From positions 1-38,129 of the IMG/VR virus record IMGVR_UViG_3300021599_000076: 38,129 bases of DNA. The stretch is one strand, 5' to 3'. Numbering within the stretch: the first letter of the stretch is position 1; every line of letters starts with the position of its first letter. This document shows, one piece after another, positions 8,949 to 31,791 of this stretch. The stretch comes from a virus. Below the pieces are notes generated by a model, which was given only the letters and a program-made list of their open reading frames with translations, was not told the DNA's origin and did not search any database. The position numbers and the translations under genes were made by a program.

Positions 8949-9388
8949 TAGATAAGCCCCATCATTTTAAATAAACCATAAACAACTGCTGATGCTATTA
9001 GTATACCAAGCACTTCACGCCTAAACTCCATACGCTTCCTGTAGAACTCATCATTCAATTCTAGGTGCTGTTTACGCATCTGTGTTATTAGTGACTTAAC
9101 CTCAGAGACAGCAGATCTACCATATTCCTGCTCAATCTGTCTATACATCTCTTGCTCTGCGTCCTTGATCTGCCTGATGATCTTGTATTCTTCATAGGCA
9201 TTCATAAACATCATGTCACCACGGCGTTCAATCTGCTGCTGCTTTCTTTTCCAGGCTACACGAGCTTTGGCTTCTTCGTCTAAGAAAGCATTAACTTCAT
9301 TAGCAGTTTCCTTAATCTCTCTGCCAACCTGTACCGCTTCCTTAATCCCTGAGAGAGCAGCCCTAGTGGTTTGTATAGGGTCACTCAT
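8948..9388 (-). CDS. Coiled-coil protein with C-terminal membrane anchor (146 aa)
   Basis: Starts at the ATG at 9388 (MSDPIQTTRAAL), 8 nt inside the end of the internal virion protein gene; the longer frame to 9511 lies within that gene and is not used. The protein is a long charged coiled coil (15-120) ending in one membrane helix (about 126-145, VLGILIASAVVYGLFKMMG). The family MSDP(I/V)QTTRxAL is frequent in podovirus genomes just before the lysis genes, with no assigned function. Topology (cytoplasmic coil, C-tail anchor) would allow a lysis-regulating or ejection-related role; it lacks the N-terminal anchor and periplasmic layout of an i-spanin. Confidence 0.75.
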   Translation of the reverse strand: MSDPIQTTRAALSGIKEAVQVGREIKETANEVNAFLDEEAKARVAWKRKQQQIERRGDMMFMNAYEEYKIIRQIKDAEQEMYRQIEQEYGRSAVSEVKSLITQMRKQHLELNDEFYRKRMEFRREVLGILIASAVVYGLFKMMGLI

Positions 9389-11240
9389 CTTCAACAACAC
9401 CTTTTCCAAGGAGTCGTTGCCTACGGAATTCAACAGCAAAGTCTGGATTACTATTGAGTTGTTCCATGAGTATTTGATTAGTAGCTGCCCTGCGTGACTT
9501 CTCAGCCACACGTTTCATAAGAATATTTTTTACTAGTTTATTTGAGTTTTGGTATATCGGTGTATTAATAAGATTAGATAGCTGCTGGTTTACAATGTCA
9601 CCAGAAACCTTAGCATACTTTTCATATGCAGTAGCATCTAATTCTACATCTCTGATTTTCTTCTCCACTGGTTTAAATGAAAAACCAATATCCTGAATCT
9701 CACGCTGCAACGGAGTCTGTTCAGCATCTCTAGTTGCAATACCAAGCACTCCAGATAAACCATAGGACAAGTTAGGTTTAGGGTTACCAAGTAAGTCCCG
9801 TTTGACAGGTAGGTCCTCACGCAGCCCTGGTATACGAGCCTGTACCGCATCGTCAAAACCACGAATCTCTCTCTGGTATGGGTCAGGAATTCGTGCAAAT
9901 TGTGCAACTGCAGCAGGAACTACAAGGCCAGCAAAGCTATTAATGAAGCTACCACCATAACGCTCAGGATCGTGGACAGCTTGGAGTACTCCAGTAATGC
10001 CTTCTAGGAAGGTTTTTGATGTAAGGTTTTTTGTAATTGCCAGCGTTCCGTCTACGGCTAGCTCCTGTATCTTCCTATCTGCCTTCGGTTTATTATAGTA
10101 GTCACGTAGTGATTCTACAGAGTCAGCAAAGACCCCCATAACCGTAGCCAATGGCTCCACCCTGGCATAGGAATACCAAGTATTTCCAATCTTGACTGAG
10201 TACTCAGGGATATTAGCAGCTATCATAGCCTCTCGCCTGCCTGCGTCCTTGGGGTAGGAACCAGTTAGGTTTCCCTGGGCTACCTGATAGGCAGTCATCG
10301 TAGCCAAACCAGCACCCATCATTGTCCTAGCCAGGGCCTCTTCCTTCTTGCCTTTAAACTGTTTCATAAAGAGGCTAGCTGGAGTATATGACAGAGCGTC
10401 CTTCAGAATATTGATTGGAGTCTTAATAAATGGAGCAATGAAGACAAGCTCAGGATGTTCAGCCCGTAGGCGTAGCATACTATTACCCAACTTACCTAGT
10501 TCAGCCTGGAATGTTTGTGCCTTAGCAAAGTTAAGGATATCACTAGCCAGTGCTGGGCTGATACTACGCAGTTTCTGCTGCCAGTCTAGACTACCGATGT
10601 CAACCTTACGAAGCTGCTGATATACTTCTTCTCGTGTCAGACCGTTAAGCTGTGACTCAGGGATAGCTTTAGCCAGTCTTTCTGCTGAGGCATTAAACTC
10701 CATCCGTCTAAAGATAGCTTTAGAGAATTCATCGATTGCAACAGACGCACGAGTAGGCATCCGTACTACAGCACCAACCTTCTTTTCTAGTTCAGATGAG
10801 TTAGCTGATCCACCGATAGCCTGACGTATCTGATCAATATTAACTTCTGTATCTAGAGGAGTGCCTTTTGTCCAGCCTGCTCTAGCAAATGTAACACCTT
10901 CTGACATTCCCTCGAAGAAGCCACGCAGCATAGAGGCAGACTCTTGCAGACGGACAGAGTTCCCAGGCATAATACCCAGCAAGAATCTTTCCGTGATTGC
11001 TAACGGAGCTTTGACTAAAGCAGACATAGCGTTAACTGCAATAGTACCGACACCAGAGATGTAGGAGTTAACTACAAACTCTGCCACCTTATCCCTGAAT
11101 CGTGGCTCTTTGAGTGTTTGATTAACAAAGTTAGCCTGGGCTTTAGCCTTTTCTCCAGGCAGCATATTTAACTTCTCAAGATCATCCAGACCTTGGAAGA
11201 AAGAATCAATTGCTGCTTTGCATTTCTCATCTACTTTCAA
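9381..11240 (-). CDS. Internal virion / large polyvalent-type protein, C-terminal half
   Basis: A 619-residue largely alpha-helical protein. Residues 45-100 (DKVAEFVVNSYISGVGTIAVNA) match the region of large phage internal virion proteins where a helix precedes S-G-x-x-T-x-x-V-N. Further hydrophobic helices occur around 260-330. In related phages I recall this part as the continuation of the preceding gene's product within one long polypeptide; here it is a separate ORF. The start is TTG at 11240, overlapping the preceding TGA (TTGA), with GGTGGGAGAT upstream as a ribosome site. The likely role is a core or ejection protein released into the host envelope with the DNA. The start codon is less certain than the frame. 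Confidence 0.75.
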   Translation of the reverse strand: MKVDEKCKAAIDSFFQGLDDLEKLNMLPGEKAKAQANFVNQTLKEPRFRDKVAEFVVNSYISGVGTIAVNAMSALVKAPLAITERFLLGIMPGNSVRLQESASMLRGFFEGMSEGVTFARAGWTKGTPLDTEVNIDQIRQAIGGSANSSELEKKVGAVVRMPTRASVAIDEFSKAIFRRMEFNASAERLAKAIPESQLNGLTREEVYQQLRKVDIGSLDWQQKLRSISPALASDILNFAKAQTFQAELGKLGNSMLRLRAEHPELVFIAPFIKTPINILKDALSYTPASLFMKQFKGKKEEALARTMMGAGLATMTAYQVAQGNLTGSYPKDAGRREAMIAANIPEYSVKIGNTWYSYARVEPLATVMGVFADSVESLRDYYNKPKADRKIQELAVDGTLAITKNLTSKTFLEGITGVLQAVHDPERYGGSFINSFAGLVVPAAVAQFARIPDPYQREIRGFDDAVQARIPGLREDLPVKRDLLGNPKPNLSYGLSGVLGIATRDAEQTPLQREIQDIGFSFKPVEKKIRDVELDATAYEKYAKVSGDIVNQQLSNLINTPIYQNSNKLVKNILMKRVAEKSRRAATNQILMEQLNSNPDFAVEFRRQRLLGKGVVEDE

Positions 11241-29134: not shown

Positions 29135-30397
29135 TTAGTATCCTGAGATAGGGTCTAGTGCTTCGTATTCTTCTTCTTCAATAAGGTTAGTAAACTCTGT
29201 AACGCCAATTTGATCAATGTAAGCCAGTGCATCAATTAAGTCATCGTGGACCTGTGGATTAGGAAAGTTAAGTAACTGATCCACAAATTGCTTATTCCAC
29301 TCTCCTCTAACTAACTTAATCCTTCCATGCTCGAAGCGTCCCTGCAAAGCCCAAACAATCCGGTCTGTCTTCTTCTTGTTCCCATGAGTGAGGTCTATCA
29401 CTGACAGGAAATAGTTCTTCCTTCTCATCAAGTCTTGTAGGTACGGGAGTACGGCATTCTTGGCCATGCCCCGCTCTATACCTATTAAACGAACATCGTA
29501 ACTTTTTGCTGTTTCTAAGATTCGGTTTGCTGTTTCTTTGATGTCCCATCTACCAGCCACAATAGTGTCTACATACCACCCGTCTTCACAAACCTTGACT
29601 ACAGCAATAGCTGTTTCATCCAGGTTCTTCCTCTTGTTAGCGGCCTGCTTACTTACGTCTTCAAAGCCAGCCAAATCAACAGCGATGTAAAACTGACCGT
29701 CCCCAGGAGTATCATCGCTATCAACATATTTAATCCATTCGTCTTTGAAGAGGTCTGACTGGGCGGCTTCGAAACTAGCAAGGTATTCCTGTCTAAAACT
29801 GAAGGAAGACATTGACTTCTTTGCTGCCTCAATCTCTTTGGGATCAAGCAGCGGATTATCGAAGCTAGTGAAGTGAAAAGACACCCAATCTTCATCTTCT
29901 TCTCTTTGAGCCATCTGATACAACTCATAGAAGTGATTCCTTCCCTTTGGTGTACCAATGAACAGAGCGCCTCCCTTAACATCACTAAGGGCTGGTCTTA
30001 GGATCTGCTCGAACACCTGTGGCTTCATGTCTGCATACTCGTCAATCACGACATACGCTAGACCCACACCACGCATTGTATCTGGACGGTCAGATCCTTT
30101 AAGGTAGATCTTCCTGTCGTTTACTAAAGTTATGACAGCCGTATTCTCGTGTACAGCTTTGATAACCTCGTGACCAAGTTCTTTAAGAACCGACCACATA
30201 ATGTCTTTAGCTTGCTGAAAGGTTGGAGCCACATAGAAGACATCCTTCTCGGTACTCTTTAATGCTTCAATGATGAGGGTCCAAGCAGCGAGACGAGACT
30301 TTCCAAATCTTCGTCCTGCAGCAACCACTTTAAAACGGTGACTATCATTAAATACTTCCGTCTGTTTAGGATGGAGTTCAACCCTTAGATTCGCCAT
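29135..30397 (-). CDS. terL: Terminase large subunit (packaging ATPase and nuclease)
   Basis: A 420-residue motor protein counted from the ATG at 30397, which follows a perfect GGAGG with six bases between. Walker A is G28-R-R-F-G-K-S34, Walker B is V-V-I-D119-E120, and the coupling motif is I-G-T-P-K-G. The nuclease domain shows D241 (YIAVDLAG), E308 (IGIERGM) and D385-D386 (HDDLIDALAY), the RNase-H-like metal set. It cuts concatemeric DNA and pumps it into the prohead. It lies between terS, which it overlaps by 20 nt, and the zincin-like gene. Confidence 0.95.
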   Translation of the reverse strand: MANLRVELHPKQTEVFNDSHRFKVVAAGRRFGKSRLAAWTLIIEALKSTEKDVFYVAPTFQQAKDIMWSVLKELGHEVIKAVHENTAVITLVNDRKIYLKGSDRPDTMRGVGLAYVVIDEYADMKPQVFEQILRPALSDVKGGALFIGTPKGRNHFYELYQMAQREEDEDWVSFHFTSFDNPLLDPKEIEAAKKSMSSFSFRQEYLASFEAAQSDLFKDEWIKYVDSDDTPGDGQFYIAVDLAGFEDVSKQAANKRKNLDETAIAVVKVCEDGWYVDTIVAGRWDIKETANRILETAKSYDVRLIGIERGMAKNAVLPYLQDLMRRKNYFLSVIDLTHGNKKKTDRIVWALQGRFEHGRIKLVRGEWNKQFVDQLLNFPNPQVHDDLIDALAYIDQIGVTEFTNLIEEEEYEALDPISGY

Positions 30398-30788
30398 CGG
30401 GGTCCTCCATATCAATTACTTCATAACCAATCTCTTCAGTTTCCCTGGCAGCTATCTGTGGCGTACCAGTGGTAACTATCTGAACTTGTATGGCATTACT
30501 TCTACCAGTCTTGTCTTTCTCAAAATGACTCAAAGGCAGTAGCCTATCGATACACATCTTGAGACAGGCCACCTGATCCTTGTCTGTGTCATCCATAGCC
30601 TTGCGGAGTACAGTCTCTATGACCTTCTCTCCGCTGGTGGACAGCAGTCGTGCATAAAACTCTTTGATTCTGGCAGCTTCACCTGGAGGTCTACCGACTA
30701 CGCCTCTAGCTTTTTTTGCTAAAATCTCTTCTTTACGGGGTCTGCCACGTTTCCTTTTTACAGGGGACAGAGGTTCAGTGCTAGACAC
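30378..30788 (-). CDS. terS: Terminase small subunit, with AT-hook-like motifs, GTG start
   Basis: A 136-residue protein. The N-terminus has two AT-hook-like motifs: KRKRGRPRK (11-19) and V-G-R-P-P-G, which would hold AT-rich DNA in the minor groove. A helical segment (38-85) follows, and the acidic C-terminus (E-E-I-G-Y-E-V-I-D-M-E-D-P-D) may contact the large subunit. Place and overlap with terL support the call. The start is GTG after AGGAGA. It is the first gene behind the leftward 30992 promoter, with a leader of about 170 nt. The small-subunit call rests more on context than on a recognised fold. Confidence 0.75.
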   Translation of the reverse strand: MSSTEPLSPVKRKRGRPRKEEILAKKARGVVGRPPGEAARIKEFYARLLSTSGEKVIETVLRKAMDDTDKDQVACLKMCIDRLLPLSHFEKDKTGRSNAIQVQIVTTGTPQIAARETEEIGYEVIDMEDPDGESKG

Positions 30789-30968
30789 TAAATTCTCCTC
30801 TACATAATTTCTACATAGCTATGCAGTAGTAATGCATTAGGTATGTAGTAGATGTAACTTCTAAGTAAGACAGAAAATAAATATTAATTATTATTCATAG
30901 TTACCGCTGATACATTGCTTAAGCGATCAACTGCACAGATCTACATAATGTTTTTTACTATGACACCT

Positions 30969-30997
30969 ATTATAGCATATTTTTTAGAAAAAGTCAA
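30969..30997 (-). promoter_or_regulatory. Leftward sigma70 promoter with extended -10 (TTGACT-17-TATAAT)
   Basis: On the - strand, TTGACT (30997-30992), a 17-nt spacer and TATAAT (30974-30969) with TGC directly before it. The start would be near 30962, giving a leader of about 170 nt before terS. A TATGTAG heptamer lies about 15 nt into the transcript. This is the main promoter of the late arm. Confidence 0.8.
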
Positions 30998-31113
30998 GTA
31001 GTTTGTACAAGTTACTACCAAATTTCTCTACCTTTTTGTAGGCAATTGTCCAGATTCTCCTACAATTTTGTAAGTCATTGATTTATAAAGGAAAACCTAT
31101 GGTGGGAATTCAA

Positions 31114-31127
31114 CCCTATTTTGCCCT
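31114..31127. repeat. 14-bp direct repeat, copy 1
   Basis: CCCTATTTTGCCCT, found again 41 bp downstream at 31155-31168. The unit is partly preserved in the sequence between (GCCCTATTTAGGC). Iteron-like spacing (four helical turns) would suit a protein-binding or origin element; there are only two full copies. Confidence 0.7.
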
Positions 31128-31154
31128 ATTTAGGCAAGTTTCCAGCTATTTTAT

Positions 31155-31168
31155 CCCTATTTTGCCCT
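31155..31168. repeat. 14-bp direct repeat, copy 2
   Basis: Exact copy of CCCTATTTTGCCCT from 31114-31127, preceded in both cases by an A/T-rich flank. It lies about 100 bp upstream of the sigma54 promoter. Confidence 0.7.
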
Positions 31169-31247
31169 GTCTTGTGTGTTGTATGGTTCATAACGCAGCC
31201 GTTGTCTGTGTTACCCCCTCCCCCGTGTCTCTAAAATACGACAATTA

Positions 31248-31264
31248 TGCACCAATGCGGTGCT
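31248..31264 (+). promoter_or_regulatory. NtrC-type enhancer dyad
   Basis: TGCACCAATGCGGTGCT: the half-sites TGCACC and GGTGC(A) with five bases between are those of the NtrC consensus TGCACC-N5-GGTGCA, with one end base changed. It ends six bases before the -24 box of the sigma54 promoter, centred about 41 bases before the expected start. This is close compared with most enhancers but within the range of the promoter-proximal weak NtrC sites at glnA. Confidence 0.6.
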
Positions 31265-31270
31265 GCAACA

Positions 31271-31286
31271 TGGCACGATTCTTGCA
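31271..31286 (+). promoter_or_regulatory. Sigma54 (RpoN) promoter
   Basis: TGGCACGATTCTTGCA matches the consensus TGGCACG-N4-TTGCW at every defined position, with the required ten bases between the invariant GG (-24) and GC (-12). The start would be near 31297, giving a leader of about 200 nt for the gene at 31502 and those after it. I found no comparable match elsewhere in the window by reading. Confidence 0.7.
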
Positions 31287-31405
31287 TAGGCAATATCTGT
31301 GCCAATAGTCTAGAGCTATCAAGGACTGTCTAGCGATAGAGAAAAAGTATTTGACATGGACCATATCACCATGCTAAAGCCTAGGCCACCACTGTATAAA
31401 TATAC

Positions 31406-31423
31406 ATTAGGGTTTCCCCTAAT
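31406..31423 (+). other. Leader hairpin 1 (ATTAGGG / CCCTAAT)
   Basis: A 7-bp perfect stem with a TTTC loop in the untranslated leader of the first rightward gene. No U-run follows, so it is not a classic terminator. It may steady the leader or bind a regulator. Confidence 0.5.
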
Positions 31424-31457
31424 TGATTGATGCAATGCACAAGCGTAATATCCACTC

Positions 31458-31483
31458 ATCGCAGGGCAATAGTGCAATGCGAT
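31458..31483 (+). other. Leader hairpin 2 next to the ribosome site
   Basis: ATCGCA pairs with TGCGAT and an inner GCA with TGC, leaving small internal loops and an ATAG loop. It ends eight bases before the GGAGG of the gene at 31502, so it could affect translation of that gene. It resembles no riboswitch that I recognise. Confidence 0.5.
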
Positions 31484-31501
31484 AAACCCTGGAGGTTTCA
31501 A

Positions 31502-31726
31502 ATGTTCGCAGCAATCAAGAAAATGGTGCAAGGCAAGAAAACCCTGGACAAGCGTGGCGGTAGATTCCTTACAGTCTACCTAGGGAATGGCAAGTACAAA
31601 AACGGCAAAGTACTAAAGGCCGGATATCTTAGGACCAAAGTACAGTTAGCGCAAGGCGGGATAACCCTAGTATCTAATCGGAATATTGACCTCGTAGCCA
31701 CTGATCACGAATTAATCAGGGTTTAA
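31502..31726 (+). CDS. First rightward gene: small basic protein (74 aa)
   Basis: The ATG at 31502 follows GGAGG at good spacing; a longer frame that starts at 31427 ignores this site. The protein is rich in Lys and Gly and beta-structured (GGRFLTVYLGNGKYKNGKVL, then TKVQLAQGGITLVSNRN). It resembles small DNA- or RNA-binding barrels, but I do not recognise a family. As the first gene after the sigma54 promoter it is likely expressed early. A strong hairpin follows it. Confidence 0.7.
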   Translation: MFAAIKKMVQGKKTLDKRGGRFLTVYLGNGKYKNGKVLKAGYLRTKVQLAQGGITLVSNRNIDLVATDHELIRV

Positions 31727-31732
31727 ACTAGG

Positions 31733-31776
31733 TGACTAATCCAAGAGGATCTGCTAAGATCCTCTTCAGTTAGTCA
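31733..31776 (+). other. Large two-part hairpin between the first two rightward genes
   Basis: Outer stem TGACTAA/TTAGTCA (7 bp), a three-by-three internal loop, then inner stem AAGAGGATC/GATCCTCTT (9 bp) with a TGCTAA loop. No U-tract follows; seven bases later is the GGAGG of the next gene. This geometry is like an RNase III processing site of T7-type early RNA or a stabilising 3' hairpin, not a terminator. Confidence 0.7.
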
Positions 31777-31791
31777 ATTAGTGGAGGTGCT

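Follow-up and report, generated by a model that had tools for sequence, protein, structure and literature searches.

A facing pair of sigma54-type promoter elements beside an NtrC-type box: a probable module of a host-regulator site array in a podovirus-like phage

The window, i.e., the whole stretch of 38,129 nucleotides analysed here, is a 38.1-kb phage record, which is probably a complete circular assembly because its two ends overlap by 91 bp. The phage is podovirus-like. It encodes a family-A DNA polymerase, a T7-type primase-helicase, a Gp2.5-like protein and a B12-type ribonucleotide reductase, as well as terminase, portal, major head protein and internal virion proteins. The biggest non-coding stretch, 30789-31502 (714 bp), separates the leftward terminase and structural genes from the rightward genes and, as originally stated, is the sole large intergenic region of the window. 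The features located in and around it are collected in Table 1. For the candidate terminase small subunit, a family match was not found. Among the proteins scanned, a set that leaves some small ORFs outside, no phage-encoded sigma54 activator or RNA polymerase was detected. The window has no Rfam match, and its RNA folding is somewhat better than that of shuffles (z -2.6).

Some further elements were observed nearby. A terminator-like 26-nt inverted repeat with a 4-nt loop (31727-31782) lies in the gap between the first early gene and a second one, which codes for a GP88-family protein (PF17338; 31792-32421). Direct repeats, TTCAACCCTATTTTGCCCT at 31109-31127 and TTTATCCCTATTTTGCCCT at 31150-31168, are kept in the aligned relatives of the terminase family and are possible origin or regulatory repeats. 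Concerning the host, a terminase search of bacterial genome contigs gave no match, and a search of 399 genomes belonging to the same order as a Comamonadaceae MAG yielded matches of no more than 34-40%; the GC content of 44% is by itself insufficient to decide the host.

Table 1. Features in and around the main divergent non-coding region (positions of the window).
Feature	Position	Strand	Remarks
Terminase large subunit gene	29135..30415	-	
Putative terminase small subunit gene	30378..30788	-	leftward operon; assigned from its position adjoining terL
Sigma70-like promoter, TTGACT-17-TATAAT, extended -10	30969..30997	-	directed toward the terminase genes; kept in aligned relatives
C-rich tract CCCCCTCCCCC	31214..31224	.	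46 bp left of the facing pair
NtrC-type box TGCACC-N5-GGTGCT, TGCACCAATGCGGTGCT	31248..31264	.	six bases upstream of the rightward arm; centre at -41 of the rightward start
Sigma54 -24/-12 element TGGCACGATTCTTGCA, rightward arm	31271..31286	+	GG-N10-GC spacing; kept in family; predicted start 31297
4-bp centre separating the two sigma54 arms	31286..31289	.	3-7 bp strongly preferred across phages
Second sigma54 -24/-12 element TTGGCACAGATATTGCC, leftward arm	31289..31305	-	kept in family; predicted start 31278
Diverged counterpart (ATGGACCATATCACCATGCT) of NtrC box ATGCACCATATCAGTGCTAC in L007, L018 and L065	31356..31375	.	from alignment with relatives
LexA-like palindrome ACTGTATAAATATACAT	31391..31407	.	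inner 14-mer TGTATAAATATACA also found unchanged in Vibrio phage VCPH and the T5 injection-stop region
First rightward gene	31503..31726	+	74 aa, no assigned function

The original prediction described an RpoN-consensus site with GG-N10-GC spacing, an NtrC-type box six bases before it, and a promoter facing the rightward arm of the genome. Site and box are both present. The strict core of the site, TGGCACGATTCTTGC (31271-31285, plus strand), agrees with the sigma54 sequence rule (YTGGCACGRNNNTTGCW, GG-N10-GC). The description of its direction holds for one arm only: a second element, which had been missed, points left, and its core TGGCACAGATATTGC (31290-31304, minus strand) opposes the first one across 4 bp. 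With the C of GC reckoned as -12, the two predicted starts fall on opposite strands, 19 bp apart. When the whole window was scored, by means of strict consensus patterns, TGGCAYRN4TTGC matched only at the two facing arms, and the box at 31248 was the only NtrC match. The published NtrC box of 17 bp reads (T)GCA(CC)AnnnT(GG)TGC(A) (PMC8743547), and the copy in the window departs from it twice (inner T to C, last A to T). It is nearer to the rightward start than the usual -80 to -150, and falls inside the stretch that would be transcribed from the predicted minus-arm start.

It had also been argued that both sites would hardly occur together by chance. In good agreement with this, 20,000 dinucleotide shuffles of the 714-bp region yielded a strict sigma54 site in 49 cases, an NtrC box in 49, i.e., a probability of approximately 0.25% for each, and both in a single case. 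These consensuses were picked after the match was seen, and conservation is therefore the stronger evidence. Together with the LexA-like palindrome, the two sigma54 arms and the NtrC box make up an array of several kinds of regulator boxes within the non-coding region, with Fur boxes occurring in sister phages; a DnaA box was not found in 30701-31502. The C-rich tract to the left is a possible cos or packaging site. In other phages it is approximately 15-fold enriched near sigma54 sites (52 occurrences near such sites, in 48 loci, e.g., L152, L156 and L323).

For the comparison with related phages, 80 family loci were fetched by their terminase alone. The facing pair (dyad) occurs in 26 sequences with enough upstream DNA, the window included, and these provide 21 distinct arms. 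Left free in the comparison at position 1 and at positions 4-11, all 21 read GGYAYR-N4-TTGC: GG, A and TTGC are invariant, and variation is confined to C/T at positions 4 and 6, A/G at position 7 and the open N4, with A instead of T at position 1 in one arm. The degeneracy of sigma54 promoters is TGGYAYR-N4-TTGC, and in this form both arms are kept. A 98% identical relative (L060) carries three changed bases in the minus arm, all at places where the consensus is open. Enhancer-site distances in relatives range from -63 to -150, compared with -41 in the window, and some sites are tandem, e.g., NtrC boxes at -83/-106 or -108 in L007, L018 and L065. L019 and its relatives have a third sigma54 site approximately 55 bp before a start codon, with NtrC-like half-sites between this site and the dyad, and single sigma54 sites approximately 50 bp before a start codon are found in L019 and L102.

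The array is not retained throughout the family. The clade with 69-71% terminase identity (L067-L081) has no sigma54 element. In L006, L015, L016, L023 and L033, a Fur-type box stands in place of the dyad, while most of them retain the NtrC box. L002, whose terminase is 100% identical to that of the window, carries Fur and GTGAGTGCTYAC-type palindromes instead, and has neither a sigma54 nor an NtrC site. Loss of both sites in close relatives, with the rest of the region conserved, had been named as grounds against the original prediction, and L002 comes close to this situation. By itself, nitrogen sensing is not constant across the group. Two further observations concern the family. The spacer GATTC belongs to the right-facing arm in some lineages and to the left-facing arm in others (L007, L018, L036, the window and others), a pattern that would fit inversion or re-copying of the dyad core. 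On the contig IMGVR_UViG_3300046779_000201 (46360 bp; L003 and L056), the terminase large subunit is present twice, in differing versions that are 94% and 91% identical to that of the window, which we read as a chimera or a tandem phage.

The dyad is by no means restricted to this family. With a centre of 3-4 bp, we counted at least 120 in viral contigs versus 9 in 257 Gb of bacterial and archaeal genomes, and most of these 9 may be chance matches or phage contigs. A dyad whose -24/-12 spacer is one base shorter does not occur at all in the same collection of viral contigs. In three locus sets, the N4 spacer alone is enriched (28, 410 and 426 sites versus 0-9 for any other spacer), so that the -24/-12 spacing proves to be strict. 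When positions 6 and 7 were left free, 77 of 80 among the matches listed were already in the Y-R set, and the flanks that the pattern leaves free obey the known rule, i.e., Y at -1, R at 8 and W at 16. The centre was scanned freely at 0-30 bp and distinct dyads were counted per gap: there are 14, 23, 20, 16 and 25 at 3, 4, 5, 6 and 7 bp, 3 at 8 bp, and approximately one per length up to 30 bp. By shared proteins, 118 dyad loci, the window among them, form one cluster of related phages, and the remainder falls into many small groups. The loci are related and most of them were fetched by the motif itself, and hence the weight is carried by the motif-independent tests, namely the terminase-fetched arms, the free positions 6 and 7, and the shortened spacer.

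Several loci depart from a single dyad in a gap. Two to four tandem dyads 42-54 bp apart are found in some of them, and a 223-kb contig has three separate dyads. Dyads also occur far from terminase genes and in unrelated phages. In a Comamonadaceae MAG, an inovirus-like contig has a sigma54 dyad adjoining its Zot gene (L204, 2645-2677); the assemblies of the dyad-bearing MAG contigs L200, L204 and L207 include a sigma54 gene. In L247 (2068-2167) and L113 (2755-2836), sigma54 sites are direct repeats exactly 18 bp apart, adjoined by a Fur-type box and a GTTAGTGAGTGCTCAC-type palindrome. In L104, L126 and L245, repeated CTGCCA-N3-TGGCAG palindromes accompany a sigma54 site in many intergenic regions (36 near, 7 far). 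Terminase-related isolates of other dyad phages, i.e., Rhodoferax P26218, Methylophilales Venkman, Caulobacter GB2A, pelagiphage HTVC106P and the Manatee Spring records, lack such arrays.

Other host-regulator boxes gather around the sigma54 sites. Within 300 bp, 44 NtrC boxes (GCACY-N5-RGTGC) were counted, versus 3, 2 and 2 when the same halves are set at N4, N6 and N7, and their density is 19-fold that elsewhere. Fur boxes are 15-fold denser near sigma54 sites, LexA-type CTGT-N8-ACAG occurs 12 times versus 1-2 times at other spacings, and GTGAGTGCTCAC-type palindromes 6 times versus 0. In a blind palindrome count, the NtrC and Fur boxes came out among the highest-ranking words. In L132, NtrC boxes flank the sigma54 sites on both sides, accompanied by a Fur box.

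Two simple readings of the palindromic outline were rejected. At positions 6-9 the two arms pair with each other less often than shuffled pairs do (0.42 versus 0.55, 0.41 versus 0.53, 0.22 versus 0.32 and 0.22 versus 0.30, all outside the 95% range). Since the arms avoid pairing with each other, the element is neither a hairpin or RNA element nor a simple homodimer operator; judged by their sequences, the two arms behave as separate sigma54 sites set face to face.

We consider the feature to be one module of an array of host master-regulator sites in the main divergent non-coding region, with a probability of about 0.6. The module would consist of the facing pair of sigma54 (RpoN) -24/-12 elements and the neighbouring NtrC box. 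It is regarded as one module of a swappable array because close relatives have Fur boxes in place of the dyad and modules are replaced, from one relative to the next, by Fur, NtrC or LexA-like boxes, and because T5 and Vibrio T5-like isolates carry comparable arrays. From the sequence rules we infer that host sigma54 holoenzyme and NtrC bind the array.

Which action follows from such binding is a matter of weighing several proposals. Our tentative preference, with the best geometry among them, is a divergent promoter that responds to the state of the host, and we place it slightly ahead of a role as a sponge or in DNA entry. Either arm would be usable, one reading into the early genes and the other toward the terminase and structural side, from starts 19 bp apart. 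Activation would come from a host enhancer-binding protein, e.g., phosphorylated NtrC, and the sigma54 pair would supplement the sigma70-type promoter by which the late side is served constitutively. Dyads lie in divergent gaps far more often than in convergent ones (200 versus 29), the predicted separation of the starts is inside the 7-25 bp range reported for bidirectional promoters (PMC10268837), and relatives have tandem NtrC boxes as far upstream as an enhancer would be. On the other side, single sigma54 sites in co-directional gaps are oriented 33 along and 42 against the gene direction, or 19 along and 11 against with ORFs of 150 aa or more, both by crude ORF calls; the NtrC box of the window is too near for a classical enhancer; the late side already has a strong sigma70-like promoter of its own; and sister phages manage without the dyad. 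The early promoter reading host nitrogen, as originally envisaged, thus stands in part. Its regulators, sigma54 and NtrC, are well supported by the sequence rules, the N5-only spacing of NtrC boxes and the tandem boxes 80-110 bp upstream in relatives, whereas a dedicated early promoter that senses nitrogen is not established, given the opposed arms, the box at -41, single sites without a clear gene-direction bias and the loss of both sites in L002.

An array of this kind could also act as a sponge, titrating scarce host regulators (sigma54, NtrC) as phage copies rise, and shutting down sigma54-dependent host functions such as pili, flagella, phage-shock and nitrogen genes. Sigma54 is present at about a hundred copies per cell. 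Sites are often multiplied, as in the tandem dyads and the 18-bp direct repeats, single sites show no clear orientation bias, and the facing layout is nearly absent from bacterial chromosomes. However, with 3-7 bp between them, the two arms of a dyad cannot bind holoenzyme at the same time, and the layout would therefore waste sponge capacity; the window has a single dyad, and Fur, which is abundant in cells, is an unlikely target. On balance we regard titration as somewhat less likely than the promoter. Still less probable in our view is a function in DNA entry or anchoring, where host DNA-binding proteins on the array would pause, hold or ratchet the incoming genome, in the manner suggested for the injection-stop region of T5. 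The boxes within that region, the confinement of strict matches to the T5 terminal repeats, the clustering of all VCPH sigma54 sites beside A2-A3 and the 14-mer shared by the LexA-like boxes of T5 and the window are in line with it. On the other hand, T5 has no sigma54 site in this region, the ends of the window's phage are not placed in a circular record with a 91-bp overlap, and a protein bound in the cytoplasm could block back-sliding but would not obviously halt entry.

The dyad adjoins terS/terL in the window's family, is palindromic in outline, occurs in tandem copies and has a C-rich tract close by, which would suit an operator, packaging (terminase small subunit) or replication site of a phage-encoded dimeric protein that merely resembles sigma54 sites. 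This explanation is very improbable, in view of the exact fit to the sigma54 degeneracy, a centre that varies between 3 and 7 bp, and arms that are less alike at positions 6-9 than expected by chance. Dyads lie far from terminase genes, in the 223-kb contig with its three copies and in the inovirus-like contig, and occur in unrelated phages; a packaging site as the sole explanation was rejected for this reason. Consensus hunting over a genome yields matches, and the sites are absent from the 69-71% clade, as a chance match would allow. Conservation and the collection-wide controls oppose it, and with the spacer control, which refutes a chance match, its probability is negligible.

Comparable clusters are present in isolates. 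In Vibrio phage VCPH (120.5 kb), all six strict sigma54 sites fall in a single 2.9-kb stretch next to A2-A3, at 116852-119765, and in Vibrio phage D260 all eight lie within 105215-109691 of 117 kb; LexA and DnaA boxes are found beside the clusters of both. Pseudomonas phage SYP has a dyad, and only some of its sites are clustered. The annotated injection-stop region of T5 (9140-10149, i.e., L352 2641-3650) contains a perfect LexA box TACTGTATAAATATACAGTA, repeated AAATGAGAATCATT Fur-type boxes and a DnaA box TTATCCACA, and no sigma54 or NtrC site. Over the T5 genome, strict LexA, Fur and DnaA matches all fall in the terminal repeats, i.e., the first-entering DNA and its right-end copy.

These cases suggest, at somewhat less than even odds, a general and overlooked class of phage cis-elements: modular arrays of host master-regulator sites (facing sigma54 dyads, NtrC, Fur, LexA, DnaA) that unrelated phages, T5 included, carry in their main non-coding region or in the DNA that enters first. 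Close relatives would swap modules, and each phage would thereby read or sequester the regulators found in its own host niche. In a literature search from which subscription journals were mostly absent, no report of such phage arrays was found. Phages are usually seen as users of sigma70, or as suppliers of a polymerase or sigma factor of their own. In the present case, a single strict sigma54 layout, amid NtrC, Fur and LexA boxes, is common among phages, while bacterial chromosomes almost entirely lack it. If these arrays are bound, lytic phages would gain direct input from the nitrogen, iron and DNA-damage state of the host, or a means to drain its regulators.

The T5 injection-stop region has been described only in terms of repeats, palindromes and DnaA boxes thought to contact host components (PMC13250531). 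Long unexplained, it gains testable content from its LexA, Fur and DnaA boxes. Like the main intergenic region of the window, it is a long non-coding region dense with host-regulator boxes, including the common 14-mer. They differ in that T5 has no sigma54 or NtrC site, while the window belongs to a 38-kb podovirus-like phage without a DnaA box and with ends that are not placed. In cyanophages, Pho-box/PhoB and NtcA-type sites are cis-acting sites through which the phage makes use of a host nutrient regulator, one regulator controlling a nutrient gene, whereas here the sites form swappable arrays in the main control region. Sigma54 -24/-12 promoters with NtrC enhancers, of the glnAp2 type, follow the same sequence rules including the Y/Y/R degeneracy, and several relatives have tandem NtrC boxes 80-150 bp upstream; the phage elements differ in facing each other 3-7 bp apart, often in tandem, and the NtrC box of the window lies close by (-41). 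In bidirectional sigma70 promoters, opposed starts are 7-25 bp apart, with 18 bp as the commonest distance (PMC10268837), which is close to the 19 bp predicted here; their symmetry, however, is that of one -10 element, whereas the symmetry of the facing pair is made up of two full sigma54 sites, which would depend on an enhancer.
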